NCBI RefSeq assembly: GCF_002487355.1
Contig: NZ_NTMG01000006.1
Span: 1-47,128 of the forward strand
From: Candidatus Methanoperedens sp. BLZ2
Lineage (GTDB): Archaea > Halobacteriota > Methanosarcinia > Methanosarcinales > Methanoperedenaceae
Reading direction: 5' to 3'
Length of the DNA: 47,128 nt
Shown here one piece after another: positions 3,353 through 46,063 of this stretch. Numbering within the stretch: position 1 is the stretch's first letter; each line of letters opens with the position of its first letter. Made by a program: the position numbers and the translations under genes. The notes beneath the pieces are model-generated. The model was not told the DNA's origin. It did not search any database and saw nothing but the letters and a program-made list of their open reading frames with translations.

Positions 3353-6300
3353 ATGAAGGGAAAGAATGATATGGCCATTGAAAAAGGGAACAATAAAAAA
3401 GGTTTGAACAGCGTCTTTAATATATTATTAATTTTAATTATAGTTTCGATATATTTTATACCGGCAGCTATGGCGGCTAATCCGCAGATAAAACTTACAA
3501 CGAACAGGTATATCATTCTTGATGACCCAAATAGAAATTATTTAAGTGTAACCGCAAATGCAGAAACTGGTTTTGGTTTACCGGGAAGCTGGAGTACGGA
3601 TGCGTGGAAAGGTGAATCCACCACCATTCGCGGCGTTGCTCTCGTCCTCAATGCCGATGGTACTCCAGCAAGCGGTGTGACTGTTACATTCTCGGTTCTG
3701 GACTGGGATGATGGAGCACCAAGAACACTTAAGAGCGATACGAACAGCAAGACAAATGTGACCAATGCTTACGGTCTTGCAACAGTTCCTTTTGATCTTA
3801 ACAATGAGCAGCAATACGGGAGATGGGAAATAGCTGCCACAGCAACAGTAGCCGGGACTCCTGTAAGTTCAACCTCTAATTTCGTTTATAACTGGTGGGG
3901 ATGCCAGAACTGCCACGGAAGCCCATACTCTGGCTCCGGGAGCAGTAAAAGTTATACATCGAGAATAGGAACCTCTAATAGATACGACCCATATTCACCA
4001 TATATCACAGGAAGGGATTTCCATGCCACGATGTACCGCAACGACCACGTTGCAGGTTCTGGCAACGGATTAAATGAGGGAGAATGCTGGGCATGTCACA
4101 ATTCCTATGATAAAGACCTGAATTTAGGACAGGCAAAAGATGTCAATGGTAATTCATATGCAGGAAAAGATGCACCTTCAACATATGGGGTACATACGAA
4201 TTTAGCATGCGCCCAGTGCCATAGCATAATAGGAACAAGTTCAGCCGGAATTGACCAGACCGTTAAATCATGCGATGCAACAGGATGTCACGCAGGTGCA
4301 ACAGATTATAATTCTCATATAGGGTCTGAAACAGTTACAGCAGCTTCTCCAAATAAATATGTAAATTATTCTGGTCTTGATGCAACTTTGGGTATCAGGT
4401 CATTTGGTTCTCCAACTTATATTCCAACACCAGCAACTTTCAATTCAAATCCGCTGACAGGAGCAAGAGCGCATACCTCAGCCGCAATCCAGAATATCCC
4501 CTGTACTGTATGCCACGGGCCGATGCACAATGTGACAAAACCCAATATCAACACTGTAGCAAAGAACACAATTACTGAAGATACACAATGCACCACGTGT
4601 CATCAATCCCTGAAACATTCAAGCAATAATCCTGTTTATTGTACAGCATGCCATTCGCAGGATGCTCATAACATTACGGTGCTCAGCAAAACGGCAACTT
4701 CCCAGCCTTCCTATGTATTCCTGGGTTCGACGAATGCGATTACATCTTTGACAACTGATTGTGAACAGTGTCATGCATCAGGTCCTGAAGCTACATTCTT
4801 TGGCTCATTGACCACAGTTGACAGTGCAGCGTATTCTACAAATTTCGCACCTGCCACACCTGCGCATAACAGGCATAATGGCAGTGTTGCATGTACAGTT
4901 TGTCATGACAATGCCAATTTCCACGACATTAAATTCTTACAACCAAATGGTGCATATTCAACATCTAATATAACAGCGGTGAAATGCGTTGACTGCCATG
5001 ATGGAACAAACTCTGCAGTACGCAGTGTCGTACAGACCAGGTTTGGCTCATTGCCGCCAACGGTAAATGCCAATATGAACCATACTTCAGATAACGGCGG
5101 CCAGAAATGGGGTAATTATTGGACAACGCTCAACGATGCATGTCTCTACTGCCATGGTGAAACGCAGCATAATACATCTGCGATAGGTGCAGCTGGCAGT
5201 GCGCTTGGTACTGATAAAGTCGGTGACCCGATCGGTTCAGGCACTGTTTGTTCAAGCTGCCATAACCAGGATGATAGCAACTATAATATTGTGAATTCAC
5301 TTTCTCCGAAACCACCTGCAAATAAACCAGGTGCGAATTATCCATCAAGCGGAGCAGTGGATCACTCAAGCTATGGCGTAACAGATAATGATTGCAAAAG
5401 CTGCCATGATGCCAACCTTGTTGGCGGGGAGAATATGGTTGGATTCACCCACAATGTAGCACCAGGAGGTGGCGGAGGTTCCTGTATGACTTGCCATGCC
5501 CAGGCTACAGGTCCGGGTGGAATATACGCAGCCATCAACGCCGCATCATTTGCAAAACACAGGAATGTTAATACCACAGATGGTCAGGATAATCTAACAA
5601 ACGATGACTGTAAGACCTGTCATACAGATATTAGCAACATGTATAATAATGGCTGGACAACACCCACAAAAGTCTGTTCGGATTGTCATACCGGCTCTGG
5701 CCAGTACGGAGCTAAGGTAATAGATAACCACAGGCAGAACGGTGTAAACATCACTACAGGAGCATCATGTGCTACCTGCCATAATAATAGTATAAACAGT
5801 ACCTTTGCCTATTCAGACAATGCAACAGTAAGCCATTATGCAACCAAGACCAATCTTATTGCCACCCAGGATTGTTCCAATTGTCACAAGAACAGTGTAA
5901 ATGGGACCACATGGGGCAATGCACTTGACCCTGCAGGCAGCCCGTCATTCCCGCATTCGATCTCAAATACTCCCACAGAAGAATGCTACACATGCCACAA
6001 CTCTGCAATCAACTTCCATAACAAGACACTTGTAAAACCCTTAGTTTCAACAGTTACATGTCTGGATTGCCACAAGACTACGGCGACAATGGCACCTAAA
6101 AAGATCGATGCCGCAGTAATAGCAACCGGTGTTCATAAGGACAGGGCATGCGATAATTGCCATGCAGGTGCAACAAACACTAACATGGATACATATTCGT
6201 TCACAACTGATCCAGCCAGGACATGCACATACTGCCATACCGGAGCAGGCAACTTCAGTGCTCCATTAGTAGCTGAACACAACCAGAACGGCCAGGATGT

Positions 6301-9300
6301 AACTACAACAGCCTCATGCACCACATGCCATGATAATAACGGTATGTACCTGAGCAATAGTGGAACGAACGGTACAACAACAGCTATCACGCATTACCTT
6401 AAAGACGTGACCAACACGTCAACAACACCGTACCAGCATCTGGGTCCTGTCAATACTTCGAACTGTATTGACTGTCACAATGGGCCCAACACCAGCAATC
6501 CGGATTGGGGCAGCCCTGTGAATATTTCCACAAGCACAAAGAGAGAACATACTGAAACCACAACAGCCCAGTGCAACACATGTCATAAAGATGGAACTGT
6601 CTCAAGCCTTGCAAATGTGGATTTCCATAATGCTTCGATAAAACTTGCAGATGCAACAGACTGCATAAGCTGCCATATATCAGCCGCAGGCCCAGGCGAT
6701 ATTTATAAGGCAATCAACACTGCTTCATTCACACAGCACAAGAATGTTAACAATACAGATGGCGGTCTTACAAACAGCGACTGCACGGCCTGTCATACTG
6801 ATATCACTAATATGATGACAACCGGGTTCACCACAACCACCAAAGTATGTTCTGATTGTCATACAGGAACAGGTGTGCCAAATGCAGTAATAATCGATAA
6901 CCACAGGCAGAACGGCGTAAACATCAGCACAGGAGCATCATGCGCCACATGCCACAATAACAGTGTAAACAGCAGTTTTGCCTATTCAGACAATGCAACA
7001 GTAAGCCATTACACAACGAAAACCAACCTTATCGCCACTCAGGATTGTACCAATTGTCACAAGAACAGTGTAAATGGGACCACATGGGGCAATGCACTTG
7101 ACCCTGCAGGCAGCCCGTCATTCCCACATTCGATCTCAAATACTCCCACAGAAGAATGCTACACATGCCACAACTCTGCAATCAACTTCCATAACAAGAC
7201 GCTTGTAAAACCCTTAGTTTCAACAGTTACATGTCTGGATTGCCACAAGACTACGGCGACAATGGCACCCAAAGAGATCGATGCGACCGTATTCGGAACA
7301 GGCGTCCATAAGAACAGGGCGTGCAAAGACTGCCACGTCAACGCGACAGACAGCAACATGAATACCTATTCGTTCACAACCGATCCTGCAAAGTCCTGTA
7401 CCTACTGCCATGTAAACAGCAGCAACCTCGCAGCACCGCAGATAGCTGAACATAACCAGATCGGCCAGGATGCGACTACACCCGATGCCACATGCAACAC
7501 ATGCCACGATAACAGCGGTATGTACCTTTCAAATATCGGTACGAACGGTACAACAACAGCTATCACACATTACCTGAAAGACGTCACCAACAGATCAACA
7601 ACACCATACCAGCACTTTGGCCCGATCAATACTTCGAACTGTATCGACTGTCATAACGGCCCGAATACAAGCAATCCGAACTGGGGCAACCCGACCAATA
7701 TAAGCACAAGTACGATCAGACCTCATACAGAGACACTCACCAGCCAGTGTGATACATGTCATAACGACGGAAATGTATCTACACTAGCCAACGTTGATTT
7801 CCATAATAAATCAATTAAACGTGCCCCTGCAGACGATTGCATAGGCTGTCATCAAAATGCGGTCGGAATCTATGCAGCAATCAATACAGCCTCATTCACC
7901 AAACACGAGAATGTCAATACCACAGGCGGTAACAATGTTACTACAAACGATGACTGTAAGACCTGTCATACAGATATTAGCAATATGTATAATAATGGCT
8001 GGACAACACCCACAAAGGTCTGTTCGGATTGTCATACCGGCTCTGGCCAGTACGGAGCAAAGGTAATAGATAACCACAGGCAGAACGGTGTAAACATCAG
8101 CACAGGAGCATCATGCGCCACATGCCACAATAACAGTGTAAACAGCAGTTTTGCATATTCAAACAATGCAACAGTAAGCCATTATGCAACCAAGACCAAT
8201 CTTATCGCCACCCAGGATTGTTCCAATTGTCACAAGAACAGTGTAAATGGGACCACATGGGGCAATGCACTTGACCCTGCAGGCAGCCCGTCATTCCCGC
8301 ATTCGATCTCAAATACTCCCACAGAAGAATGCTACACATGCCACAACTCTGCAATCAACTTCCATAACAAGACACTTGTAAAACCCTTAGTTTCAACAGT
8401 TACATGTCTGGATTGCCACAAGACTACGGCGACAATGGCACCTAAAAAGATCGATGCCTCAGTAATAGCAACTGGTGTTCATAAGGACAGGGCATGCGAT
8501 AATTGCCATGCAGGTGCAACAAATACTAACATGGATACATATTCGTTCACAACTGATCCAGCCAGGACATGCACATACTGCCATACCGGAGCAGGCAACT
8601 TCGGTGCTCCGTTAGTAGCGGAACACAACCAGAACGGCCAGGATGTAACTACAACAGCCTCATGCACCACATGCCATGATAATAACGGTATGTACCTGAG
8701 CAATAGTGGAACGAACGGTACAACAACAGCTATCACGCATTACCTTAAAGACGTGACCAACACGTCAACAACACCGTACCAGCATCTGGGTCCTATCAAT
8801 ACTTCGAACTGTATTGACTGCCACAATGGCCCTAATACAAGCAATCCGAACTGGGGCAACCCTGCCAATATCAGCACAAGCACCATGAGACCGCATACAG
8901 AAACGCTTACAAGCGAATGCGACACTTGTCACAGCGATGGTGTAGTCTCTCTAGATGACGTTGATTTCCACAACGCATCTGTACAGCTTGGGGCAGGTGG
9001 CTGTATAGGATGTCACAGCAATGTAGGTACTGTAAGTCTTGGCCTCCATTCAAACTTGAACGGCACATCCGCAGTTGAAGACAGTGATTGCCAGACATGT
9101 CACTTTGGAGCGGCCAGCATCCCAATGATTGCGGGAGCTGGCACTGGTGCAGCTAATAGCAGCAATACATACTATTGTCAGGATTGCCATACCAGTGAAG
9201 GAACAGGATATCCTAAACCGAGTATTTTATCATCAGTAAGTCATGGAAAAATCGACTGCAAATGGTGTCATGCAGCAGGCGATCAGCCAACCTCTAAGTA

Positions 9301-10126
9301 TCATTCAAATAATCTTGGATCGCAGCAAGGGCCAACAGGTACAGCAACAGGAGCTAATTGTGCCACCTGCCACGGTGCTAATCTTCAAGATATATTTAGA
9401 GCTCCGGGAATAACACATTTAGGAGACATCAATAGTTGTGGTGAATGCCATGGCAGTGTTAACAACCACTTAGTTACAGCATTAAACAATTTTGTCTCTC
9501 CAACACTTTCAGGCATATCAATAACTACCCCGGTAACAGTCGGAACACCTGCTCAGATCCAGGCTACAGTATCAGACAGTATGGTGATGATAGCAGCTGC
9601 CCAGTATCAGGTAACAAATACCTCAGGAACGGTCATTCAATGGACAAATATGACACCCTTGGATGGATTTAATTCACCAACTGAAACTGTTATTGCATCA
9701 ATACCTACATCAAATCTAATTGGTCCTTATACAGTTAGCATTAAAGGTATGTCTTCAGCATACAAGACTGATCCTTCAAAGCCATATTATCCACTCAATG
9801 GCCAGTGGAGTTCGATTGGCAGTACCCAGCTTATCGTTACAGAGTCTAAAGGGTATATTAACGGAACCGTAAGAAATAATTCAGTTAATATCTCAGGTGC
9901 TGCAATTACTACAAACACAGGAGTTACGGCGATCAGTGATGCAAATGGTTTCTATTCCCTGAGTCTTACAAATGGTACATATCAATTGACCACAGTAAAG
10001 GAACCGGAATTTTACATCAACAGCAGTGTAAGTGTAACAGTAACAGCGCCAGCAACAATTACCAGGGATATAATCCTGAATAGGAAGCCAACAGGAACTA
10101 TAAGCGGAATAGTTACAGTAAAGTAA
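3353..10126 (+). CDS. Giant secreted multiheme c-type cytochrome (about 55 haem motifs)
   Basis: A protein of 2257 residues with an N-terminal signal (hydrophobic core about 22-38, then AMAAN). An Ig-like/invasin-like beta domain follows (about 40-180). I count 54 CxxCH motifs plus one CX4CH (CDATGCH). From about residue 751 the protein is built of three tandem 12-haem units; the first two are each exactly 391 residues, the third slightly shorter. After the last haem come an Ig-like domain (about 2048-2160) and a carboxypeptidase-regulatory-like domain (about 2165-2257) ending RKPTGTISGIVTVK. Known multihaem cytochromes of this type in ANME archaea carry electrons from the membrane to outside acceptors; that role is inferred here. 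Start: ATG 3353; ATG 3371, with GAAGGG ten bases upstream, is an alternative. It heads a same-strand group with two smaller paralogues. Confidence 0.95.
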   Translation: MKGKNDMAIEKGNNKKGLNSVFNILLILIIVSIYFIPAAMAANPQIKLTTNRYIILDDPNRNYLSVTANAETGFGLPGSWSTDAWKGESTTIRGVALVLNADGTPASGVTVTFSVLDWDDGAPRTLKSDTNSKTNVTNAYGLATVPFDLNNEQQYGRWEIAATATVAGTPVSSTSNFVYNWWGCQNCHGSPYSGSGSSKSYTSRIGTSNRYDPYSPYITGRDFHATMYRNDHVAGSGNGLNEGECWACHNSYDKDLNLGQAKDVNGNSYAGKDAPSTYGVHTNLACAQCHSIIGTSSAGIDQTVKSCDATGCHAGATDYNSHIGSETVTAASPNKYVNYSGLDATLGIRSFGSPTYIPTPATFNSNPLTGARAHTSAAIQNIPCTVCHGPMHNVTKPNINTVAKNTITEDTQCTTCHQSLKHSSNNPVYCTACHSQDAHNITVLSKTATSQPSYVFLGSTNAITSLTTDCEQCHASGPEATFFGSLTTVDSAAYSTNFAPATPAHNRHNGSVACTVCHDNANFHDIKFLQPNGAYSTSNITAVKCVDCHDGTNSAVRSVVQTRFGSLPPTVNANMNHTSDNGGQKWGNYWTTLNDACLYCHGETQHNTSAIGAAGSALGTDKVGDPIGSGTVCSSCHNQDDSNYNIVNSLSPKPPANKPGANYPSSGAVDHSSYGVTDNDCKSCHDANLVGGENMVGFTHNVAPGGGGGSCMTCHAQATGPGGIYAAINAASFAKHRNVNTTDGQDNLTNDDCKTCHTDISNMYNNGWTTPTKVCSDCHTGSGQYGAKVIDNHRQNGVNITTGASCATCHNNSINSTFAYSDNATVSHYATKTNLIATQDCSNCHKNSVNGTTWGNALDPAGSPSFPHSISNTPTEECYTCHNSAINFHNKTLVKPLVSTVTCLDCHKTTATMAPKKIDAAVIATGVHKDRACDNCHAGATNTNMDTYSFTTDPARTCTYCHTGAGNFSAPLVAEHNQNGQDVTTTASCTTCHDNNGMYLSNSGTNGTTTAITHYLKDVTNTSTTPYQHLGPVNTSNCIDCHNGPNTSNPDWGSPVNISTSTKREHTETTTAQCNTCHKDGTVSSLANVDFHNASIKLADATDCISCHISAAGPGDIYKAINTASFTQHKNVNNTDGGLTNSDCTACHTDITNMMTTGFTTTTKVCSDCHTGTGVPNAVIIDNHRQNGVNISTGASCATCHNNSVNSSFAYSDNATVSHYTTKTNLIATQDCTNCHKNSVNGTTWGNALDPAGSPSFPHSISNTPTEECYTCHNSAINFHNKTLVKPLVSTVTCLDCHKTTATMAPKEIDATVFGTGVHKNRACKDCHVNATDSNMNTYSFTTDPAKSCTYCHVNSSNLAAPQIAEHNQIGQDATTPDATCNTCHDNSGMYLSNIGTNGTTTAITHYLKDVTNRSTTPYQHFGPINTSNCIDCHNGPNTSNPNWGNPTNISTSTIRPHTETLTSQCDTCHNDGNVSTLANVDFHNKSIKRAPADDCIGCHQNAVGIYAAINTASFTKHENVNTTGGNNVTTNDDCKTCHTDISNMYNNGWTTPTKVCSDCHTGSGQYGAKVIDNHRQNGVNISTGASCATCHNNSVNSSFAYSNNATVSHYATKTNLIATQDCSNCHKNSVNGTTWGNALDPAGSPSFPHSISNTPTEECYTCHNSAINFHNKTLVKPLVSTVTCLDCHKTTATMAPKKIDASVIATGVHKDRACDNCHAGATNTNMDTYSFTTDPARTCTYCHTGAGNFGAPLVAEHNQNGQDVTTTASCTTCHDNNGMYLSNSGTNGTTTAITHYLKDVTNTSTTPYQHLGPINTSNCIDCHNGPNTSNPNWGNPANISTSTMRPHTETLTSECDTCHSDGVVSLDDVDFHNASVQLGAGGCIGCHSNVGTVSLGLHSNLNGTSAVEDSDCQTCHFGAASIPMIAGAGTGAANSSNTYYCQDCHTSEGTGYPKPSILSSVSHGKIDCKWCHAAGDQPTSKYHSNNLGSQQGPTGTATGANCATCHGANLQDIFRAPGITHLGDINSCGECHGSVNNHLVTALNNFVSPTLSGISITTPVTVGTPAQIQATVSDSMVMIAAAQYQVTNTSGTVIQWTNMTPLDGFNSPTETVIASIPTSNLIGPYTVSIKGMSSAYKTDPSKPYYPLNGQWSSIGSTQLIVTESKGYINGTVRNNSVNISGAAITTNTGVTAISDANGFYSLSLTNGTYQLTTVKEPEFYINSSVSVTVTAPATITRDIILNRKPTGTISGIVTVK
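5603..9020 (+). repeat. Triplicated 12-haem coding unit, period 1173 bp
   Basis: Equivalent codons start at 5603, 6776 and 7949, so the first two units are each exactly 1173 bp (391 codons). The third, from 7949, loses the register by about 13 codons after its twelfth haem. Each unit has twelve CxxCH motifs in the same order. Long stretches of copies 1 and 3 (for example 5860-6480 against 8206-8826) are almost identical in bases, while copy 2 differs more. This suggests recent duplication or gene conversion. Confidence 0.9.
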
Positions 10127-10134
10127 CTGGAGAT

Positions 10135-10174
10135 CTTACTGGGACATTCATTAGAATGAATGATTTCCAGTAAG
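10135..10174 (+). terminator. Long hairpin after the giant cytochrome gene
   Basis: CTTACTGG (10135-10142) pairs with CCAGTAAG (10167-10174). Inside it CATTCATT (10145-10152) pairs with AATGAATG (10155-10162). There is no strong T-run directly after, so it may be an mRNA 3'-end stabiliser rather than a simple terminator. Confidence 0.45.
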
Positions 10175-10264
10175 ACTCTATGAATAATGATCTAATCAGT
10201 TGAGAAATTAAAAATCAAATAGATAGCTTTATTGTATCGTATATTCATAGAATAAAACAATATT

Positions 10265-10277
10265 GGATAGGATAGGA
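10265..10277 (+). promoter_or_regulatory. Tandem GGATAGGATAGGA leader before the second cytochrome
   Basis: The motif ends two bases before the ATG at 10279 and is preceded by TT. A TATA-like CGTATATT is centred at about 10238, roughly 26 bp upstream of the motif, so transcription may start almost at the motif itself. A further GGATAGGA lies inside the coding region at 10316-10323. Confidence 0.45.
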
Positions 10278-10278
10278 C

Positions 10279-13023
10279 ATGTCTGAATATGGAATATTTT
10301 CACAAAAAAACGATTGGATAGGAGTTGCATTATTTCTGGTGGTTTTTGGATTTTTTATTCCGGTAGTTCTTGCAGAATCTCCAAACGATGCGTGTTTTGG
10401 CGGTGCATGCCATAGCTCTTCTGGTCCTACGATTGACCGCGCATTATATGACTCCAATCCCCACAAAATAATCAAGTGTGTCGAGTGCCATGTAAATTCT
10501 ATAGATAACTCAAGTTCTGATCATGGTGATTTTATAAGGCAATTGAATGGAAGTAAAATTACAGGGCCATTAACAACAAATTATAGTTCCGAAAATTTCT
10601 CTCTATGTTATTATTGTCATGAAGAGGGGAAAGTAGTAGGAATGGCACCTGGATTTATCGCTTCGGCTTATCATATAAATCCTGATATAACTGTTCAAAG
10701 CATAGGTACTAATTTTATTAATATGGATCCCTTAGGTTATCATAATGGTAGTCCTCCTCCAAATTTAGTACCGGATATACCCACTAATATTCATTGGAAT
10801 CATCTGGATGCCTTTGGGAGTACGAATTATGGAATTATTGGAAAATTTGACTCGAACAGGGATGGGACAATAGATTCATTCCAGTCATGTCCGGCCTGTC
10901 ATAACGTACACGGAACAAACTACCCCAAAATGACCAAAAATGATCTGGGGATTACGTATGGTTCTGATACAAATGGTACTTTTGGATATATTGGAAGCGA
11001 CGATTACAATCGAGGTGGTGGTGACCTTTATTGTACAGGTTGCCACACCAGTGGAACACAATTTAAATACTACAGGAACGAAATAAATCTTTTCGGGGAT
11101 TGTGTCTCATGTCATATTGATGGGGCAACAGGCGGTGTTAACAGAACAGCATTCAGCCAGGGAGTACATGTTAATATTAATACTTCCGGTGGACCAGGAG
11201 CAGTCAATAATGCTGATTGCTTGACATGCCACTATAACGGAGATATGAATAGAAGTAACATCTGGCAATGTAATGACTGTCACACAGGCACAGGCAAGCC
11301 AGAAGCCTCGCTGGCGCCAAAAATAAAAACTCATATATCCGGTGTAAAAATAACAAATTATTCATGCGCGGATTGCCACAGCAAAGTGATCGTTGATCCT
11401 GGAGCAGGAATTCCAAATATAACATCCCATTATCTAAAGAGACCCACTGTATTAAGTGAAAAGTATTGCGATTATTGCCACGGGCCGAATCCAAGCTCTC
11501 CATTCAATGCAACAAACAAGACTATTTCAGCGTTCAACCATGATAATACGGACTGGAACGGAAATGCCACATGCAGAACATGTCATTCAAATTCCAGTGT
11601 TCCGGCCGACCCTCTGGCTAATAATTCTACATCATTCCATGATCTTACTACTGAATTAGGCGATGTATATAATGGAACGGCAAAGGCAGACTGTTTCATA
11701 TGCCATGTCCAGAAACCTTCACAGTTTGTCGACGCTCCTACTCCCTCGCATGATATTACAGGCTATGTCGCAGAAGATTGCCGTAACTGTCATACATCAG
11801 GATCAGGCACTGAGGGGCAAAAGCTTCACAGCGTATCCGCATCTGCGACTGGCGGGTGCATACCCTGCCATTCAAATAATGCAACCAGGTATTATGCAAA
11901 CACAAGCCTCTTTGGAAGACATGCAAATATTAATGCAACAGGTGGCCTGAATAACGTAACAGATGATGATTGTAAGACCTGTCACTTTGGTACTGCAGAT
12001 GGGACGATGCCGATGAAGTTGGGTGCAGCCAACTCCAGTAACACATACTTCTGTGACGCATGCCATACATCAGCAGGCGCAGGACCGATCCATCCAACAG
12101 ACGCCAACCTTATTAAAGATGGTTTGCGGCATGGTTCAACAAATTGTCAATGGTGTCATATTGCAGGAGCTCTTCTTCCAAGGCCATTAGATACTACTTT
12201 AAGATATCACCCCAGCGGGCCTCGAGGAACTGCTGCCGGAAAGAACTGCCTGACATGCCATGGTTCCAATCTCCCGGATCTACCTTTCCATGCACCTGGA
12301 ATAGTACATTCTTCTGATTTAGAGAGTTGTGGTTATTGTCATTCACAAACAAATAATCATGCTGTTAGCCCATTGAACGCTGACACTCCACCATCGATTT
12401 CAGGTTTGTCCGTTACTACAGTAGTTACTGCAGGCAATGTAGTGCATGTTCAAGCTGCGGTAGCGGATGATATGACTCAGATAGCAGCAGGCCAGTATCA
12501 GGTCAAGAAAGGTACAACCACAGTTATTGATTGGACAAATATGACTCCAAAGGATGGAAGATTTGATTCATCAAGTGAAATCGTGAACACCAGTATTGAT
12601 ACTTCAGCTCTCCTGGGTACCTACACAGTCAATGTTAAAGGCATGGCTTCAGCATACAAGACCATTCCAGCATTACCTTATTATCCATTGAACGGTCAAT
12701 GGAGCGGTATCGTCAGTGCACAATTTATTGTTAACCAACCCACCGGGTATAATAATGGAACTGTGAGTGGAAGATTGGGTAATGGTTTAGCAGGTGCGAT
12801 AGTATCTGCCAATAATAGCGTATCAACGACTACTAATGAAACCGGATATTATTCTTTGAGCTTGACAAATGGTACCTATCGGTTGACAGCAAGCAAGGAG
12901 CCGGAATACTATTCAAATAGCAGCGTGATAGTAACTATAGTGGCACGTACGAATATAACCACGAATATCATTCTCGATCTGAAACCAACAGGTAATATAG
13001 CAGGTAGAGTTACGAACAAGTAA
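10279..13023 (+). CDS. Secreted multiheme c-type cytochrome (about 19 haem motifs)
   Basis: A protein of 914 residues with a signal peptide (about 17-36, ending VLAES). I count 18 CxxCH motifs plus one CX4CH (CFGGACH) just after the signal. The last haem block, an Ig-like domain (about 703-815) and the carboxypeptidase-regulatory-like domain (821-914, ending LKPTGNIAGRVTNK) closely match the corresponding end of the giant cytochrome. The N-terminal two thirds differ in spacing, so the paralogues share a constant C-terminal cassette. It is probably exported and haem-loaded outside the membrane, as part of an electron-transfer chain with its neighbours (inference). Start: ATG 10279 behind GGATAGGAC. 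The terminator at 13043 suggests its own transcript end. Confidence 0.93.
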   Translation: MSEYGIFSQKNDWIGVALFLVVFGFFIPVVLAESPNDACFGGACHSSSGPTIDRALYDSNPHKIIKCVECHVNSIDNSSSDHGDFIRQLNGSKITGPLTTNYSSENFSLCYYCHEEGKVVGMAPGFIASAYHINPDITVQSIGTNFINMDPLGYHNGSPPPNLVPDIPTNIHWNHLDAFGSTNYGIIGKFDSNRDGTIDSFQSCPACHNVHGTNYPKMTKNDLGITYGSDTNGTFGYIGSDDYNRGGGDLYCTGCHTSGTQFKYYRNEINLFGDCVSCHIDGATGGVNRTAFSQGVHVNINTSGGPGAVNNADCLTCHYNGDMNRSNIWQCNDCHTGTGKPEASLAPKIKTHISGVKITNYSCADCHSKVIVDPGAGIPNITSHYLKRPTVLSEKYCDYCHGPNPSSPFNATNKTISAFNHDNTDWNGNATCRTCHSNSSVPADPLANNSTSFHDLTTELGDVYNGTAKADCFICHVQKPSQFVDAPTPSHDITGYVAEDCRNCHTSGSGTEGQKLHSVSASATGGCIPCHSNNATRYYANTSLFGRHANINATGGLNNVTDDDCKTCHFGTADGTMPMKLGAANSSNTYFCDACHTSAGAGPIHPTDANLIKDGLRHGSTNCQWCHIAGALLPRPLDTTLRYHPSGPRGTAAGKNCLTCHGSNLPDLPFHAPGIVHSSDLESCGYCHSQTNNHAVSPLNADTPPSISGLSVTTVVTAGNVVHVQAAVADDMTQIAAGQYQVKKGTTTVIDWTNMTPKDGRFDSSSEIVNTSIDTSALLGTYTVNVKGMASAYKTIPALPYYPLNGQWSGIVSAQFIVNQPTGYNNGTVSGRLGNGLAGAIVSANNSVSTTTNETGYYSLSLTNGTYRLTASKEPEYYSNSSVIVTIVARTNITTNIILDLKPTGNIAGRVTNK

Positions 13024-13042
13024 GATAGAGATAATAAATATT

Positions 13043-13071
13043 AGAGTGAATCTTTTCACTCTTCATTTTTT
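13043..13071 (+). terminator. Terminator after the second cytochrome
   Basis: AGAGTGAA (13043-13050) pairs with TTCACTCT (13055-13062) around a 4-nt loop, followed by TCATTTTTTT. Confidence 0.65.
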
Positions 13072-13212
13072 TCAATTTTGTAAGTACCTTGAGGCTCTCA
13101 GAGCTAAAACGATACAATTATATGCAAAGAGATTTTAATTATTCATTAGAAAAACGGGTTAGGATTTATAGTATCATAGAGATACATTTAAAAATAAAAT
13201 AATATTAATATT

Positions 13213-13243
13213 GGATAGGAGAAGTAATATGAATTGGATAGGA
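13213..13243 (+). promoter_or_regulatory. Paired GGATAGGA motifs around the start of the third cytochrome
   Basis: GGATAGGAG (13213-13221) gives a ribosome site seven bases before ATG 13229. A second GGATAGGAG (13236-13244) lies just inside the gene and encodes W-I-G. A TATA-like TTTAAAAATA at about 13187-13196 would place transcription start at or near the first motif. Confidence 0.45.
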
Positions 13244-16200
13244 GATAGTCTAAATTCGCATAGCAGAGCAAATCATATAATCAACGCATTTTTAATTTTG
13301 ACATTGTTTGTATCGTTATTATTTACTATAAATACAGCCCAGGCAATATCGAATATCAAGAGTCATAATATTACTGGAAATATAACGGATTTGGAATGCA
13401 TTATCTGTCATCCCACTCAAGAAACACAATTCCAACCAGGATTGAATCAATTGGATAAGCCTCTACTGATCGAAAATGCACCCAAAACAAGTATTAATTC
13501 ATTACTTCAAGTTGGGGAAAATTATACCGCAATCCTTACTTTCGGACAAACACCTTACCAGCTTGGTCCATTTTTCCGCAGTGGAGCTAATGGTTGGAGC
13601 TGGCTGGATAGTGATAACTGGGGAACAGAAAAACAGAAGAATCTCATCTTGCTTTCAATACTTGATAATACTACAGGTAGTTTAAAACCTGTCCAGGGGT
13701 TGACATCCTGGCCAACATGGCCACAGGCGGGTTTTAGATATCATAATGGGGCATATAGCTACAAAGCAGATAATGCTCCTTCTCCTATAGATATTCAGAA
13801 AAATTATCCGGATGCCAGCGAATTCTGGATGGTTAAGGAGATCGATTTAAGCGGACTGAGCAGCGCAAATCTTAATTTCTGGACATGGTTTTCGATGGAA
13901 ACAGATTGGGATTATGGATATGTTGCCATATCCTCTGATGGAAATAGCTGGACAAATCTTCAAGGAACACTAACTACAAACACAGATCCTAATGGCAATA
14001 ACCTTGGAAATGGAATAACCGGTAACAGTAGTGGAATATGGGTGCAGGAAACGATGGATTTGACACCATATGCTGGAAAAAAGGTTTTGATCGGATTCAG
14101 ATTTGTGTCAGACCCTGCGGTCAATGAAGAGGGGATGTATATAGATGATATAACTGCTACCGGGGGATTCAGCGATGATGCAGAAACTCCTCTTGAAATA
14201 AAAACTCTAAGTGTCAATGTTACATATCCCCGTCTGGCCATACTGAATCCAACAGATCCATTGACAGGTGCAAGCACATTGCAGTATAACCAATATATCC
14301 AAAGAGTAGAATTACATGAGGATATTGGGCATCCTGGTACATATGCCGGATATTTTAAATATGACCCATTTGCAAGCCAATATTCAGGAAGATATACAGT
14401 AAATCTTGATACTATAATAAACGGGGAACTGGTTATTGGAAGTACAACATTTGATACTACTATATTTGGTTGCCAGGATTGCCATAATAAGAATTATAAT
14501 GGTGCTGAAACGAGCTTTGTTCATGCAGACGGTGGCGGAATGCAATCATGTGAATATTTATGTCACAGCGGATCAAGAGGCTTATATGACAATGCATTTA
14601 TGGGGCCGCCTCTTCCCGCAAATCCGATACATGTGCACGAAATGAAATTCGGGCATCAGGGGGGATATCTGGATGGTGCATATTATCCTCAGCCTCCATA
14701 TAATGTTCCTTCACATGTAACTGAAGTAAGTTGTGTACAATGTCATACATCGTTCATTCATGACAATACAGGAAGCGATACTGCAAAAATTGGAAATTAC
14801 ACATTATACGGTACAAATATAACTTTTTCTTCTGGTACACACAACAGTTTGACATGTGAGCAATGTCATGGGACATTAGATTATCCTGAGATACCACATA
14901 ATCAATATAGTATAACAAATAAACTCGGAAATAATAACCGTTCTTTTACGTCTTCTGAATCATTTACGGATACTTATGCAGTAGATGTGAATGGAATTGA
15001 TAATCTTACGATAGATGTGCATGCTAATGATGGTTCTACAAATTCTATTGTTATATATGTTATAGGCCCGGTAGATAACACTACAACTGCTATACAGGGA
15101 CCCGATCAGAATGGAAATCCTTACTATATGACTCAAAGCCTTTCCACACCGATCAACGTAAATGTAGCAGGTCCATATACTGGAACATGGTTAGTCAAGT
15201 TATATTCGACACAAGAAGGGGTTGTAGATTATACAATAACTAGCAGTTATCCTATTGAAAGAAAACCAATAATAAAAATACCGGAATGTAATGAATGTCA
15301 TAATTCTGATTCTACAGGCAAAACATATGCAAAAGATCCAATTCCAAATTGGAATCCTGGATTTGCACATACCGATGTAAATGATGATGGAACTCCAGAC
15401 ATCCAGTGCAGGATGTGCCACAATGCAATGCACGACATAACGGTCAAAGCCTGCCTTAACTGCCACACCACGGCACCGACCGGCCACCCAATAGCTGAAC
15501 CTGCATTTTCCCAATATACTCAAGTTCAATGCCTCGCTTGCCACGGTGATCCTCACGAAGTGACCATGGCGGGTGGAGGATGCATTGGCTGTCACTCTAA
15601 TTCAGACACGCGATACTATGTCAACACAAGCTTGTTTGGAGAGCATGCCAATGTGAATGCATCAGGCGGTCCAAATAATGTCACAGATGCAGACTGCATG
15701 ACCTGTCACTTTGGATCATCAGACATTATGATGAGCCCGGATGCGGGTCTTGGTGCTGCAAATCACAGTAACACCTGGTTCTGTGATGATTGCCACACTG
15801 AAGGTGGATCAGGACCTCTCAAATCAACAATTCTAAAATCTGTTAGCCATGGTTCAACAGATTGTAAATGGTGTCATATTGCGGGGGACCCTCTACAAAG
15901 ACCATTAATTAATGAAAATGAAACATTGAGATATCATCCCAATGGACCTAAAGGAACTGCGGCTGGACAGAATTGCTTAACCTGTCATGTATCTGGCAAT
16001 CTTCCTGACCTGCCATTCCATGCACCTGGAGAAGGCCATTCAACCACGACTACAGATGACTGTAGTGAATTTTGCCACCAGAATTCCGATCCTCACAGGG
16101 TCACTCCTTTAAATGCAGGGACTCTTCCAACCATTTCAGGTTTAACAGTAACCACGCCAGTCACATCAGGAACACCCGCTCTAGTTCAAGCTACAATAAA

Positions 16201-16762
16201 GGATGATTATATGCAGATAGCAGCAGCACAATATCGAGTTACTGATGCTTCAGGGGAAATAATTCCATGGACAAACATGACTCCAGTCGGAGGAAGATTT
16301 AGTTTATCGACACAGGGTGTTTCTTCGAATATAATCACATCGAACCTGAAAGGCACCTACACGGTATATGTCAAAGGGATGGCTTCAGCTTATAAGACGA
16401 ATCCATCACTCCCTTATTATCCGATGAATGGGCAATGGAGTAGTGGTGTTTATAGTGCACAATTTAAAGTGGAAGAACCAGAAGGATATGGTAATGGCAC
16501 GGTTTATGGTATCCTTGACAAAAAAATCGCAGGAGCAATAGTATCCACAAATACCAGCGTTTCTACAACTACAGATCAGAATGGGGCTTACTCATTGAGC
16601 CTGCCAGAGGGAACGTATCGATTAACCGCAAGCAAGGAGCCCGAATATTATTCTAACAGCAGCGTGGTAGTTACGGTGACAGCGTATACTACGGTAAATC
16701 GGGATATTATTCTCACTCCCAAACCAACGGGAAATATAAGTGGAACTGTCAGGAATAAATGA
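13229..16762 (+). CDS. Secreted multiheme c-type cytochrome with jelly-roll domain (about 15 haem motifs)
   Basis: A protein of 1177 residues from ATG 13229; the frame extends to a TTG at 13211, but AGGAG at 13217 fits the ATG. A signal peptide spans about 17-40 (ending AQAIS). Haem 1 (CIICH) is followed by a long non-haem part. Residues about 165-310 resemble the immune-inhibitor-A / MAM-type jelly roll (FWMVKEIDLSG ... YAGKKVLIGFRFVSD ... YIDDI). Haems 2-5 follow, then a beta domain like the pre-peptidase C-terminal type (about 565-690), then haems 6-15. I count 13 CxxCH and two CX3CH (CEYLCH, CSEFCH). The end repeats the Ig-like domain (about 965-1080) and the regulatory-like domain (1085-1177, ending KPTGNISGTVRNK). 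The extra domains suggest binding to a surface partner; this is inference. Confidence 0.93.
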   Translation: MNWIGDSLNSHSRANHIINAFLILTLFVSLLFTINTAQAISNIKSHNITGNITDLECIICHPTQETQFQPGLNQLDKPLLIENAPKTSINSLLQVGENYTAILTFGQTPYQLGPFFRSGANGWSWLDSDNWGTEKQKNLILLSILDNTTGSLKPVQGLTSWPTWPQAGFRYHNGAYSYKADNAPSPIDIQKNYPDASEFWMVKEIDLSGLSSANLNFWTWFSMETDWDYGYVAISSDGNSWTNLQGTLTTNTDPNGNNLGNGITGNSSGIWVQETMDLTPYAGKKVLIGFRFVSDPAVNEEGMYIDDITATGGFSDDAETPLEIKTLSVNVTYPRLAILNPTDPLTGASTLQYNQYIQRVELHEDIGHPGTYAGYFKYDPFASQYSGRYTVNLDTIINGELVIGSTTFDTTIFGCQDCHNKNYNGAETSFVHADGGGMQSCEYLCHSGSRGLYDNAFMGPPLPANPIHVHEMKFGHQGGYLDGAYYPQPPYNVPSHVTEVSCVQCHTSFIHDNTGSDTAKIGNYTLYGTNITFSSGTHNSLTCEQCHGTLDYPEIPHNQYSITNKLGNNNRSFTSSESFTDTYAVDVNGIDNLTIDVHANDGSTNSIVIYVIGPVDNTTTAIQGPDQNGNPYYMTQSLSTPINVNVAGPYTGTWLVKLYSTQEGVVDYTITSSYPIERKPIIKIPECNECHNSDSTGKTYAKDPIPNWNPGFAHTDVNDDGTPDIQCRMCHNAMHDITVKACLNCHTTAPTGHPIAEPAFSQYTQVQCLACHGDPHEVTMAGGGCIGCHSNSDTRYYVNTSLFGEHANVNASGGPNNVTDADCMTCHFGSSDIMMSPDAGLGAANHSNTWFCDDCHTEGGSGPLKSTILKSVSHGSTDCKWCHIAGDPLQRPLINENETLRYHPNGPKGTAAGQNCLTCHVSGNLPDLPFHAPGEGHSTTTTDDCSEFCHQNSDPHRVTPLNAGTLPTISGLTVTTPVTSGTPALVQATIKDDYMQIAAAQYRVTDASGEIIPWTNMTPVGGRFSLSTQGVSSNIITSNLKGTYTVYVKGMASAYKTNPSLPYYPMNGQWSSGVYSAQFKVEEPEGYGNGTVYGILDKKIAGAIVSTNTSVSTTTDQNGAYSLSLPEGTYRLTASKEPEYYSNSSVVVTVTAYTTVNRDIILTPKPTGNISGTVRNK

Positions 16763-17179
16763 GAAAGCATTGGTGCTCCACAGAAAAGACTTCTGGATTT
16801 GAAGTTGTTTTCGCAATAATGACCAGGTGTTATATGGTTTAAATTAAGATGATTCCTGACTATTTCCAGAAGAGCAAGAGTTCGAGATAATACTACTATG
16901 TGGACAAATCAGGAGCCGAGACTATCATTCACGACATCATCCTGGAAGGAATTAACGAATCGACAGAATTAATAGCTCCACAAAACCGAATTAAAATACA
17001 GCGAAATAAGAGCTTTTGAATTGAAAAGATATAGAAAGCTTATGGTATTATGCCAAGTGAATATTTGAGCTATTCTTCAGAATCCTGATTATAATAGCTA
17101 AACAAATGGTTTTTCTCTATTCCATGACTTCATTCTAGTGTTTTGAGATATCTTTTCCTGTTTCTGAGATTTTTCAAAA
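16763..17179. other. Non-coding gap after the cytochromes
   Basis: This 417-bp stretch has no convincing gene. A 40-codon open stretch around 16890-17020 is closed by stops, has no start context, and was not matched to a family. No clear terminator or promoter was found except AT-rich DNA before 17180. Confidence 0.5.
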
Positions 17180-18190
17180 ATGAAAAATACGATCGAAACA
17201 GGAATTTTATTAATTTTGTCGATATTGCTTTTAACCAGTGTGGCAAACGCTGCGGACACAGGCTGGGTGGCTCCGGGCGCAAATACAGGTGGATCAGGGG
17301 TGTCAAATCCACAAAATGCTCACATTGATAATACTTTATATGCATCCTTCTCCAACAATGGTTATTGGAACTGGTATGGTTATGCCTTATCCTCAATTCC
17401 TTCCGGGAGTATTATAGATGGTATTGAAGTAAACGCAAAAGGACGTGAATCTTCTGGTTGTAGTAGTTGTTATATGCGATTGCGACTAAGCTATGATGGC
17501 GGGGCGACCTGGACAAGTTATATCAATACTGCATCTTCATTTTAGACAACTACCATTTCGAATCATATTGCCGGAGGCCAGACAAATAAGTGGGGTCGTG
17601 ATTGGACAAGAGACGAGATAGTGAATAATCTTAGAGTTCAGGCAAATTGGATTGGTTCTACTTCAGGACGTCTTACCTATCTTCCTGTAAGAATATATTA
17701 TACTGAAGCGGTTGATATAACCCCACCCGTAATTACGTTAACAGGTCTAAGTTCGGTGACCGTCGAAGCAGGTTCAGTATATACCGATGCCGGGGCAACT
17801 GCACAGGACAATATTGATGGTGACCTTACTTCATCCATCGTAACAGGAGGTCTTCCGGTCAATACGAACGTACTCGGACCTCACACAGTTACTTATGATG
17901 TGACTGACTTTTCAGGGACTGTCATCGATAGCGTCCCAGCACATACACCACTTGCAGGAGTAATAGTTTCAACAACAGGCGGAATTTTATCAGTTACAGA
18001 TGGATCCGGAAAATATTCACTTGTTGTCAATAAAGGATCATATCCATTGGCCGCATCGTATGATATCAGATATTATACAAATAGCTCTGTGACCGTATCC
18101 ACAACGGGATTCACCAGTGTGACGCAGGATATCGAACTTGAATTGAAACCAACTGGAAATATAACAGGGGTTGTCAGTGTAAATGTTTAA
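17180..18190 (+). pseudogene. Secreted Ig-like (DUF5011) protein with in-frame TAG codon
   Basis: Two open pieces, 17180-17545 and 17546-18190, are in the same frame, separated only by TAG at 17543-17545. Reading through gives 336 codons with continuous sense on both sides. The protein has a signal peptide (about 7-24, ending ANAAD) and a beta-rich domain with a CSSC motif that spans the TAG. A DUF5011-type Ig-like domain comes next (about 180-250; pattern VEAGSVYTDAGATAQDNIDG). The shared regulatory-like domain ends it (LKPTGNITGVVSVNV). It may be a nonsense pseudogene, a readthrough or pyrrolysine codon, or a sequencing error. TAG is used as an ordinary stop elsewhere here (for example at 1858), which argues against a global code change. 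No ribosome site is obvious before ATG 17180. Confidence 0.7.
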
Positions 18191-18205
18191 TGAGCATAGA
18201 CAATT

Positions 18206-18239
18206 CCGGGATGCCTGGCATGATAGGCAGGCGCTCCCG
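18206..18239 (+). terminator. GC-rich hairpin, first of two related copies
   Basis: CGGGA-T-GCCTG pairs with CAGGC-G-CTCCCG after the Ig-like gene. The start ATTCCGGGATGCCTGGCAT is nearly repeated at 22851 after another gene of this locus, so the two 3' ends share an element. Confidence 0.5.
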
Positions 18240-18458
18240 ACTGTATATGTGCTGGAGAACTCGAGCTAACTCTATACGAACTCACGAAGTCTGAAATTTT
18301 GAGTTTTACACACTCTGATGCCGGTGTATGTTAGATGGAAAATTTATGATACTAATAGTAATTATAATAATGCCCCTAATATAAAAAAGAAAGTTTTAAA
18401 TACTTGCAGATATCTCTCAAATCCAGAACGGGTAGAAACTTTAGAGTGATGACCCGAA

Positions 18459-18465
18459 GGATAGG
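18459..18465 (+). promoter_or_regulatory. GGATAGG leader before the beta-helix gene
   Basis: AAGGATAGGTGG lies nine bases or less before ATG 18474 and can act as its ribosome site. A TATA-like TTTTAAATA at about 18394-18402 would give a leader of about 50 nt. Confidence 0.4.
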
Positions 18466-18473
18466 TGGTAAAA

Positions 18474-21005
18474 ATGGTATCATATAACTTTTACAGAGGG
18501 CACCTCAGAACAGAGGTTGGAATAGCAATATTATTGATCATGTTGATGGTCAGCAGTGCAGATGCAGCTGTTCTTGAGGTAAACTCAAATCATGGGTCAG
18601 GAATACAAAGCATTGTTTATCCCACAATTCAAGGTGCTATAGACGGTGCAAGTGACGGGGATTTAATTATAGTCACAGCAGGTACATATTATGAAAATTT
18701 GACTATTTCAAATAAAATCAACCTTACGATAACAGGGGCCGGGATCGGTTCAACGATCATCCAGCCGAATGTTCTAAAGACTGCAGGTGTGGCACATAAA
18801 TATGATACTGATATGCGTGTTGCATTATTTGTGAATAGATCAACGAACTTGACAATTCAGGGTGTGACTATTTCAGGAAGCGGTCTTGCCCCCAATGCAG
18901 TAGTTTTCTGGAATGCAGCAAGCGGGGAGATCAAAGACGCAAGGATAACGGATACGACTCCTATCACGGGGGTTCAGACAGGGCAGGGGGTAGCAGTTGA
19001 TGCAAGTTCAGGCATGACAAGTTCCCTGAACCTGACAAATGTTCAGATCAACGGGTTTAATAAGAACGGCATTGATGCAGTAGATGGAAACGGGGGAACC
19101 AGTCCTGGCACTATTATAGTGAACTTAAATGGTGGGAGTATAACGGGTTTTGGTCCAACCGATAGGATAGCCCAGAATGGTATTCTCTTCTGGGAACGCG
19201 CCGGGGGCACAGTTGGCGGTTCCATCAATGGAGTGAGCATTTCTAATTTAGATTATACTCCCACAGACAATGAAGCATCAGGAATTTTGGGTTTCGTAGG
19301 TGGTCCGGATTCGATATCTAATAGCGTATTCTCAAATGTTGAGTTAGATATTTACGCAAGTGAAAATATCGATGCAAGCATTGGCAACACATTCGATGGA
19401 GTTGCAGCAAGCAGCGCCACAGATGCCCAGCTATTTGCCATCGAGGACATGATCTACCATAAAATCGATAATGCAACCCTAACTCTTGGCCTGGTAACGA
19501 TCAAGCCGAACAATGTTTATGTTACTCCTGCCAGCGGCTCTATCAAGCGCGGTATTGATGCAGTCCCCATCGGCGGCACAGTTAACGTGGCTCCAGGGAC
19601 GTATACGGAACCATCGACGATCGGTCCACAGATTTCGATAAGCAAGGATTTGTCGATAGTGGGTGCGGATAAAACTACAACAATAATTAAACCTTCGGCT
19701 GATACAGGAGTCGGACTTACAACTAATGATGTCAACGGATGGTTCCTTATTGATCCGGGAGTTACTTTTGATCTAAGCAATGTGACTCTGGATGGTGATG
19801 GAAAGAATATATCCCAGGCTATTCGTTCGCATGGTTCAGGGACGATCCAGAACAATATTATAAAGAATATGGGGTATAATCCTTCAACTGCCTACAAAGG
19901 CATGGGCATTGTTACGTTTGATGCTAATATGTTGATAAGAAACAACGAATTATCGAACATTGGCAGGATCGGCATCTACGTAGGCTCAGGTGTTACGAAC
20001 TCGGTGATCAGCGGAAATACATATACTGGTAAAGGAAATGGCAACTGGCTCGACTACGGAATTGAAGTGGGAAGAGGAGGGAATGCCACAATTACCGATA
20101 ATACGGTCTGTAATTGTACAGGCGTTGCAACCGTGGACGGATCGACATCAGCAGGCATTCTGGTAACGACTTATTATAACCCCGGAACATCTGCCACGAT
20201 CACTGGCAATAATATATGCAATAACTCTGTCGGCATCGCGGTTGGATACAATGACGCAGATGCAAGCACAGTTATTGCGCATTATAATAATCTCACTGGC
20301 AATGGTGAAGGTGTAAACAGCACAAATGCAACTGTTGACGCCACACTCAACTGGTGGGGCAGCGATTCAGGCCCCGGACATGTTGGACCGGGAAGTGGAG
20401 ATAATGTAAGCATCAATGTCCTTTATGATCCATGGCTTCCCGTTGATCTCACCCCTCCCGCAAGTGTAACAGACCTTGTGAATATGAGCTATGCGACGAA
20501 CTATATCAACTGGACATGGACTGATCCAGCCGATCTGGATTTTGAAAAAGTGTTGATATACCTGGATGGGGTTTCAATGGGTGAAGTCCCAATAGGAGTT
20601 CAATTCTACAATGCAATAGTTTCTCCAGGAACTTACACCATCGGGACAAAAACAGTTGATGAGAGAGGAAATATCAATGCTACCATGAAGACGCATACTG
20701 CAACCACGATACTTCCATTGGTAAGGTTCATCAACGGCACAGTATTTGAAAGTCCTGATCCCCTCGCTGGCATCCCTGGAGTGACCATCACTATAGGCAG
20801 CCAAACAACCACAACGAATGCAACAGGCTTCTATTCGTTCGCGGTTCCTGATGGCTCATACAGCCTTACAGCAACATTAGATCCCACATATTATTCCAAT
20901 AGCTCGATCCCGGTCTCAACGACAGGGGAAACTGTTGTGGTGCAGGACATTAAACTTCAATTAAAACCTACAGGAACAATATCCGGAAGTGTTAAAATAG
21001 GATAA
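18474..21005 (+). CDS. Secreted right-handed beta-helix protein with FN3-like and shared C-terminal domain
   Basis: A protein of 843 residues from ATG 18474; the frame also has a GTG at 18465, but that overlaps the ribosome site. The signal segment (about 14-32) ends SADAAV. A long parallel beta-helix (about 35-640) shows pectate-lyase-like rungs, starting with TIQGAIDGASDGDLIIV and repeating G-x-x-I-x-x-N patterns such as ISGNTYTG, ITDNTVCN and ITGNNICN. A fibronectin-III-like domain follows (about 660-745; NYINWTWTDPADLDFEKV), then the regulatory-like domain ending LKPTGTISGSVKIG. Such helices bind or cleave polysaccharide; no catalytic residues were identified, so a structural adhesin is as likely. 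The next gene starts 40 bp downstream, suggesting one operon. Confidence 0.88.
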   Translation: MVSYNFYRGHLRTEVGIAILLIMLMVSSADAAVLEVNSNHGSGIQSIVYPTIQGAIDGASDGDLIIVTAGTYYENLTISNKINLTITGAGIGSTIIQPNVLKTAGVAHKYDTDMRVALFVNRSTNLTIQGVTISGSGLAPNAVVFWNAASGEIKDARITDTTPITGVQTGQGVAVDASSGMTSSLNLTNVQINGFNKNGIDAVDGNGGTSPGTIIVNLNGGSITGFGPTDRIAQNGILFWERAGGTVGGSINGVSISNLDYTPTDNEASGILGFVGGPDSISNSVFSNVELDIYASENIDASIGNTFDGVAASSATDAQLFAIEDMIYHKIDNATLTLGLVTIKPNNVYVTPASGSIKRGIDAVPIGGTVNVAPGTYTEPSTIGPQISISKDLSIVGADKTTTIIKPSADTGVGLTTNDVNGWFLIDPGVTFDLSNVTLDGDGKNISQAIRSHGSGTIQNNIIKNMGYNPSTAYKGMGIVTFDANMLIRNNELSNIGRIGIYVGSGVTNSVISGNTYTGKGNGNWLDYGIEVGRGGNATITDNTVCNCTGVATVDGSTSAGILVTTYYNPGTSATITGNNICNNSVGIAVGYNDADASTVIAHYNNLTGNGEGVNSTNATVDATLNWWGSDSGPGHVGPGSGDNVSINVLYDPWLPVDLTPPASVTDLVNMSYATNYINWTWTDPADLDFEKVLIYLDGVSMGEVPIGVQFYNAIVSPGTYTIGTKTVDERGNINATMKTHTATTILPLVRFINGTVFESPDPLAGIPGVTITIGSQTTTTNATGFYSFAVPDGSYSLTATLDPTYYSNSSIPVSTTGETVVVQDIKLQLKPTGTISGSVKIG

Positions 21006-21045
21006 TGAGGTTTTATATTTTTTCAGAAATCCATGAGAGGGAGAA

Positions 21046-22830
21046 ATGATTCAAAATAAAAAAAATAAACGGTGGAAAGTCTTAAGAAACGCGATCGGAA
21101 TAACTATTTTGTTCCTGATCCTGGGATATGGCGGGGCTCTTGGTGCAACAATAACTCAATGCGGCAATATTGACTCATCAGGGGACTACGTACTTGGCCA
21201 GGATATCTGGAGCACAGGGAACATGGCAGTTTCGTCTTGCATTAATATAACCTCAAGCAATGTGGTTTTTGATGGTGAAAGCCATTATATTATTGGCAAT
21301 TCAGCAGAGGTTGGTACGATCGGGGTTTACGTAAATAATCCGGCAAGCATTATTATAAATGTAACTGTAAAAAATGTGAACGTTACCCGGTGGGACTCTG
21401 GAATTTATCTAAAGGATTCATCTGATAATAATGTCACAGGCAACAATGCCTCAAATAACTCAAATGGGATAAAATTGTTTAATTCCAGCAATAATTTTAT
21501 CTATAACAATTATTTTAACAATACAAATAATGTTATAATTGACTCAAGTGTAAATTATTGGAATACAACAAAACTATCGGGAAAAAACATTATCAATGGC
21601 TCTTATATGGGAGGCAACTTCTGGGCAGACCCGGGCGGTAACGGCTGGAGCCAGACATGCCCGGTCAATAATATTTATGGGATGTGCGATTCACCATACA
21701 TTATCAATTCTGCCAACAAAGATTTCCTGCCGCTTACGAAATTACTCCCAACGCAAAGGTTCATTACCGGCACGGTGAGGGACAGTGTTACTAAAATGGG
21801 TATTGCAGGGGTGAATGTATCTCTTAATAACAGCAACTCAACTATTACCGATGCAATGGGGTTCTATTCTTTCGTGGTAGAGCCAGGTACATTTGAAATT
21901 ACGGCGACTTTTGATATAAGGTATTATACGAATAATTCGGTAATCGTTTCGACAGTATCAAATCCTGTTGTGGAGCAGGACATTTTACTTGTTAAGAAGC
22001 CAACAGGAACGATAACAGGTAAGGTGTCCGGGTACAGTACGATTATAATATCTTCGCCTGAAAATATCTTTTACCACACAACTGATATTCCATTAATTGT
22101 TTCAGCAGATAAAGTAATCAGTTTATGGCAATATAGCTTGAATGGTGCAGTTAATGTCACATTCACACCACCTATCACTATAACAGCTTCACAGGGACAG
22201 AATAACCTGGTCGTATATGCACAGGATTCAACAGGCAATTGGGGTTCAAGTTCGGTTTCATTTTCTGTGGATTCGATACCTCCGGCGTCTGTGGATAACC
22301 TTCAGAATGTAAGCTATGCCCTTGATTATATCAACTGGACATGGGCTGACCCGGCAGATGAGGATTTCGAAAAGGTGCTTGTGTATCTTGATGGTGTCCC
22401 GCAGGGTGAGGTTCCAAAAGGAGTGATGTATTACAACGCTACTGGCCTGGAACAGGCAACATACACTATCGGTACAAGAACAGTGGATATCAATGGCACT
22501 GAAAATGCGACCCTGAGGACGCATACAGCAGCCACAATTCTTCCGGCAGAAAGGTACATTAACGGTACAGTAATGGAAAAAGGCACCACAAACGGCATTT
22601 CTGGTGTAACAGTGACCACCAATACCTTAGTTTCAACAATGACGAATGAAACAGGATTCTATTCACTGTCCCTTACTTCAGGCTCGTTTGACCTTACGGC
22701 AATGCTTGAGCCAGGGTACTATACTAACAGTTCGGTATCGGTGTCAACAGAATTGAGAGCTGTTACGATACAGGATATCGAACTTGAATTGAAACCTACG
22801 GGGAATATAACAGGGACTGTCAGCGGATAA
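21046..22830 (+). CDS. Secreted NosD-like beta-helix protein with two copies of the shared domain
   Basis: A protein of 594 residues; GAGGGAG lies just before ATG 21046. The signal segment (about 14-34) ends LGATI. A short NosD/CASH-type beta-helix (about 40-225) shows GIYLKDSSDNNVTGNN and GIKLFNSSNNFIYNNYF rungs. A first regulatory-like domain (about 237-325) ends KPTGTITGKVSG, here internal. An Ig-like domain (about 330-405), an FN3-like domain (about 410-500; YINWTWADPADEDFEKV) and the terminal copy ending LKPTGNITGTVSG follow. The FN3 and terminal parts are clearly paralogous to the upstream gene. The internal copy shows that the KPTG segment also links to further domains, which bears on whether it is a sorting signal. 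Confidence 0.88.
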   Translation: MIQNKKNKRWKVLRNAIGITILFLILGYGGALGATITQCGNIDSSGDYVLGQDIWSTGNMAVSSCINITSSNVVFDGESHYIIGNSAEVGTIGVYVNNPASIIINVTVKNVNVTRWDSGIYLKDSSDNNVTGNNASNNSNGIKLFNSSNNFIYNNYFNNTNNVIIDSSVNYWNTTKLSGKNIINGSYMGGNFWADPGGNGWSQTCPVNNIYGMCDSPYIINSANKDFLPLTKLLPTQRFITGTVRDSVTKMGIAGVNVSLNNSNSTITDAMGFYSFVVEPGTFEITATFDIRYYTNNSVIVSTVSNPVVEQDILLVKKPTGTITGKVSGYSTIIISSPENIFYHTTDIPLIVSADKVISLWQYSLNGAVNVTFTPPITITASQGQNNLVVYAQDSTGNWGSSSVSFSVDSIPPASVDNLQNVSYALDYINWTWADPADEDFEKVLVYLDGVPQGEVPKGVMYYNATGLEQATYTIGTRTVDINGTENATLRTHTAATILPAERYINGTVMEKGTTNGISGVTVTTNTLVSTMTNETGFYSLSLTSGSFDLTAMLEPGYYTNSSVSVSTELRAVTIQDIELELKPTGNITGTVSG

Positions 22831-45399: not shown

Positions 45400-45825
45400 T
45401 CAGAATTCACTCTCTTTACTTTTACCATATATTAACTCTACAAATTGCCTGGGTGTTCTGTATTCTTCCTGACCTATGAAATCCCTGTCCAGGCTTATGA
45501 TATATTTAATTCCATATTTCTTCACAACAGCTAATTGTTCAAGGTCTTTTTCTTTTATTTGTCCACTGTATTTTTTCATAGCATCTTCAACGTCTCTGGC
45601 AAGTATTATCATGCAGGCTTTATATAGATAATTCCTGAAGCTGTCTGCAAGTTTTTTATCATGATACTTTTTAAAATAACAATACACTTCCTTTATTACG
45701 CGTTCTGAAATTATTACCTCTATTTTTTCATCGTTTAGCAGTTCTATGATAGTATTCGAATTTGAGTCGGAATATTCAAATGCGAATATGAAAACGTTTG
45801 TATCCAGAAAAATTCTATGCTTCAT
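45400..45825 (-). CDS. PIN-domain toxin
   Basis: About 141 residues from ATG 45825, which has GGAG eight bases upstream; an earlier ATG at 45843 lacks a ribosome site. PIN-domain features: FLDTNVFIFAFE with the first Asp, ISERVIKEVYCYF, KDLEQLAVVKKYG and a late IISLDRDF. It overlaps the end of the upstream RHH antitoxin gene by 11 bases. Probably a VapC-like ribonuclease of a type II pair. Confidence 0.8.
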   Translation of the reverse strand: MKHRIFLDTNVFIFAFEYSDSNSNTIIELLNDEKIEVIISERVIKEVYCYFKKYHDKKLADSFRNYLYKACMIILARDVEDAMKKYSGQIKEKDLEQLAVVKKYGIKYIISLDRDFIGQEEYRTPRQFVELIYGKSKESEF

Positions 45826-46063
45826 CACGTATACTCCGAACATCTACAATAAGTTGTTCGGGGCTGACTTTTCTCTTTTTATTTGCCTGTATCTCCTGCC
45901 ATATTGTTTTTTTATCAAGCAGGTTAAGGTCTATAGCATATTTTATTAATGCTGATCTGATTGCCTCTGATTTGTTGTTGAATAAGCCCAGATCAACCAT
46001 CTGTTTAAGAAGATGTGCCTCGATTCCTTTGAATTTTAGTGTTAATGTTGTAGTTTCAGTCAT
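45815..46063 (-). CDS. Ribbon-helix-helix antitoxin
   Basis: A protein of 82 residues. The ribbon TTTLTLKFKGIEAHLLKQMV is followed by the helix-turn NNKSEAIRSALIKYAID, a standard RHH DNA-binding arrangement (xxxSEAIRxAL). The C-terminal part (VSPEQLIVDVRSIRDEA) would bind the PIN toxin. The protein likely represses its own promoter just upstream. Confidence 0.82.
   Translation of the reverse strand: MTETTTLTLKFKGIEAHLLKQMVDLGLFNNKSEAIRSALIKYAIDLNLLDKKTIWQEIQANKKRKVSPEQLIVDVRSIRDEA

Follow-up and report, generated by a model that had tools for sequence, protein, structure and literature searches.

Does an in-frame TAG that splits the gene of a secreted protein in Candidatus Methanoperedens sp. 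BLZ2 encode a special residue, serve as a switch, or simply mark a broken gene? The gene lies within a window of 47,128 nucleotides (contig NZ_NTMG01000006.1, positions 1 to 47,128), which is the whole stretch of DNA that was analysed. An earlier note, made from the letters of this window, pointed out that related methanogenic archaea can read TAG as pyrrolysine, but favored a recent nonsense mutation or phase-variable loss as the more cautious reading.

The interrupted frame and its unbroken relatives

On the plus strand, a single in-frame TAG (17543-17545) breaks a frame that is otherwise open from the ATG at 17180 to the TAA at 18188-18190. The translation comprises 121 residues, the TAG, and then 214 residues up to the TAA. 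An in-frame stop, TGA at 17165, precedes the ATG. Over the same interval the other forward frames contain 23 and 22 stops and the reverse frames contain 14-21, and the chance that a 214-codon frame of the same composition would stay open is about 1.5e-6. Frame translation and these stop counts confirm that a lone TAG interrupts an otherwise continuous secreted-protein frame, as the earlier note had proposed.

The N-terminal domain is unbroken in two other Methanoperedens genomes (G002/L094 and G020/L095, with 57% and 49% identity), where it aligns across the TAG and belongs to single reading frames longer than 860 codons. Strongly conserved blocks occur both 5' of the TAG (ADTGWVAP and SSIPSG) and 3' of it (WTRDE.VN and PVR). 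Thus, we conclude that the TAG falls inside one homologous domain. Because single uninterrupted proteins match the sequence on both sides of the TAG, the two halves of the frame represent one gene, which bears out the impression of sensible sequence on both sides. Opposite the TAG, within a loop of variable sequence and length, the relatives carry unrelated, ordinary amino acids (Asp and Thr), and nothing in these aligned residues suggests a special residue at this position. No further relatives were identified in a scan of genome contigs with a short query or in IMG/VR, an alignment scan returned only the same two, and a class-wide search yielded only four remote ones.

The two relatives are large surface cytochromes that share the signal peptide and N-terminal domain with the interrupted gene. 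In both, this domain heads a multihaem c-type cytochrome protein of more than 860 aa, whereas in the interrupted gene it is followed by an Ig-like domain and a C-terminal domain, and there are no haem motifs. In two relatives (loci L045 and L046), a large multihaem cytochrome begins with the N-terminal domain and is encoded directly downstream of two membrane-protein genes that, by eye, look like cytochrome c maturation genes (ResB- and CcsA-like).

Table 1. Features of the interrupted gene (positions in the window).
Feature	Position	Strand	Remarks
Whole interrupted gene	17180..18190	+	Signal peptide, N-terminal beta-sandwich-like, Ig-like PF16403 and C-terminal CarboxypepD_reg-like domains
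Predicted signal peptide MKNTIETGILLILSILLLTSVANAA	17180..17254	+	By eye; model helix 2-18; hydrophobic N-termini aligned in relatives
N-terminal domain, interrupted by TAG	17255..17706	+	Conserved in G002/L094 and G020/L095
In-frame TAG	17543..17545	+	Aligned codons in relatives: Asp (GAT), Thr (ACA); variable loop
Ig-like domain PF16403, last part missing	about 17711..17922	+	Profile 1-61 of 71
C-terminal domain, ends ...KPTGNITGVVSVNV	17912..18187	+	Common to five neighbouring secreted proteins

The match to the Ig-like domain stops ~10 profile positions short, and the C-terminal domain follows immediately; in relatives, a last segment comes next (NPAIRKTRTVDV in G002). Given that the domain lacks its last part and abuts the next one, an internal part of the gene may have been lost as well. 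The shortening may represent a second, in-frame internal deletion, or ordinary domain shuffling. The interrupted frame closes normally at its far end, as all six genes of the neighbourhood end in the same, paralogous domain.

In the predicted structural model, the TAG maps to a low-confidence loop (residues 118-136), with four strands of the N-terminal domain after it (130-132, 152-158, 162-167 and 170-175). Model quality is fair only within stretches of the N-terminal domain, where ten-residue means reach about 84 pLDDT, and poor in the remainder. A fold search with this model gave no match at E <= 0.001; the weak matches include carbohydrate-binding beta-sandwich modules, and sialidases match weakly at the sequence level (E 0.02).

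Nonsense mutation, consensus error or two genes

We consider a recent single-codon nonsense mutation in the gene of a secreted, probably cell-surface, protein to be the best explanation, with a probability of roughly three in four. Uninterrupted homologues span the stop, as is required of a nonsense pseudogene, and no pyl system was found (see below); the cautious reading of the earlier note is supported in this respect. Translation would start at 17180 and a release factor would end it at the TAG. The 121-residue product would consist of the signal peptide and the first half of the beta-rich domain, would lack the last strands of that domain as well as the Ig-like and C-terminal domains, and most likely would be unable to fold or to reach its place. 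We propose that the lesion is young, which explains why the remainder of the frame has stayed intact. Against this reading stands that codon-position differences look no more relaxed 3' of the TAG than 5' of it, a pattern that fits either a very young lesion or no lesion. We infer that the cells do carry this mutation and that the truncated product is functionless. Single-nonsense pseudogenes of prokaryotes, which likewise combine one premature stop with an intact, conserved frame and uninterrupted relatives, are an already known kind of case, from which the present gene differs in nothing notable except a possible additional internal loss at the junction of the Ig-like and C-terminal domains.

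The main rival, which we regard as less likely than a nonsense mutation and unlikely overall, is an error in the consensus that arose from sequencing, assembly or strain mixture, in which case most or all cells would carry an intact gene and the TAG would be an artefact or a minor allele. The 85 contigs are consistent with a draft or metagenome assembly, in which a lone lesion looks alike whether it stems from mutation or from error. Moreover, no other lesion occurs in about 1 kb, and the substitutions on the two sides of the TAG look alike. However, short-read assemblies rarely contain single-base consensus errors, and no homopolymer at the site exceeds four nucleotides.

It is very unlikely that the locus encodes two working genes, one for a secreted fragment of 121 aa and another for a protein of 189 aa that begins at GTG 17621. 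A GTG-started frame is indeed present downstream, but the split lies inside one homologous domain, the second part would lack a signal peptide, and the relatives are single proteins.

Possible decoding or switching of the TAG

Decoding of the TAG as pyrrolysine, or by another suppressor tRNA, would yield a full-length protein. This could account for a frame that stays open for 214 codons past the TAG, and TAG is a rare stop in this genome, where it ends 4 of the 49 long frames examined. In these four cases, the next in-frame stop occurs only 2-15 codons on, compared with 214 codons here. Since the TAG-ended long frames meet another in-frame stop within 15 codons, TAG functions as an ordinary stop in this genome, and the earlier statement that it also ends ordinary genes holds.

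The genome searched for the pyrrolysine system comprises 3.74 Mb on 85 contigs and is 99.99% complete by the tool's estimate. None of the 31 genomes of the genus contains the PylS_Nterm family, whereas Methanosarcina acetivorans, used as a control, gives a match. The sole PylS_Cterm match in the genome scores 31 bits (cut-off 178) and is a histidyl-tRNA synthetase, as judged by its sequence. The best matches to PylD (24.5 bits, cut-off 150) and PylB (99 bits, cut-off 348) are far below threshold, as are those in control genomes that lack a pyrrolysine system. Also not found in the genome is MtmB, a hallmark pyrrolysine enzyme. A search with M. barkeri pylT, run without a positive control, gave no match in the genome, and no tRNA with a CTA anticodon occurs among 42 tRNA hits, a census that lacks Trp, Tyr and Cys tRNAs and is hence incomplete. 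Five intron-containing tRNAs in this census were read by eye (Lys TTT, Met CAT, Arg CCT, Gly and Glu TTC), of which the program had named the Lys and Met tRNAs differently.

These results contradict the pyrrolysine option. In Methanosarcinales, the pyrrolysine-decoded genes mtmB, mtbB and mttB likewise carry an in-frame TAG, and the archaeon belongs to this wider group. Unlike them, the interrupted gene does not encode a methylamine methyltransferase, the residue at the TAG is not conserved, and PylS, PylB and PylD were not found. Pyrrolysine at this position was rejected, on PylS, PylB, PylD and MtmB and on the Asp and Thr of the relatives. Even with the incomplete tRNA list taken into account, we judge decoding of any kind to be very improbable; slimmer still is the chance that an undescribed suppressor tRNA reads through some Methanoperedens TAG codons and supplies a low level of full-length surface protein. 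With no pyrrolysine machinery found and unrelated amino acids in the relatives, the gene is broken in the ordinary way, unless a single base was misassembled. The earlier note had held that unrelated sense codons in orthologues and a lack of pyl genes would make the TAG a plain nonsense mutation, and by those terms it is one.

For a surface protein within a multi-gene set of modular secreted proteins, on-off switching of the gene by phase variation or a diversity-generating mechanism might be envisaged, but it is highly improbable and the earlier suggestion of phase-variable loss is unsupported, as no tandem repeats were found in 16700-18500, no second DNA copy or template of 17380-17740 in the genome, and no protein paralogue of the N-terminal domain.

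Neighbouring genes for secreted proteins

The interrupted gene is the fourth of six consecutive plus-strand genes for secreted proteins (3353-22830). It is preceded by three multihaem cytochromes (with 54, 18 and 13 CXXCH motifs) and followed by two beta-helix/NosD-like proteins. The protein with 54 of these haem-binding motifs (3353-10126, plus strand) is 2257 aa long. Different in architecture, all six proteins end in one shared CarboxypepD_reg-like domain of about 85 residues, which bears KPTGxIxGxV shortly before the stop. This domain could have a role in surface anchoring or in sorting. The intergenic segment 16784-16847 is 82% identical to positions 45530-45595 of a contig from another genome of the genus (G013, contig C7), near a gene on the opposite strand (45697-45960) that encodes this C-terminal domain family. 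This segment is possibly a conserved non-coding element.

The case removes a false lead for pyrrolysine in Methanoperedens and matters little on its own. The PylS N-terminal family missing from 31 genomes of the genus is a small, reusable negative result. As for the organism, the gene lies in a run of modular surface proteins beside large multihaem cytochromes, where the loss of one member may be tolerated.
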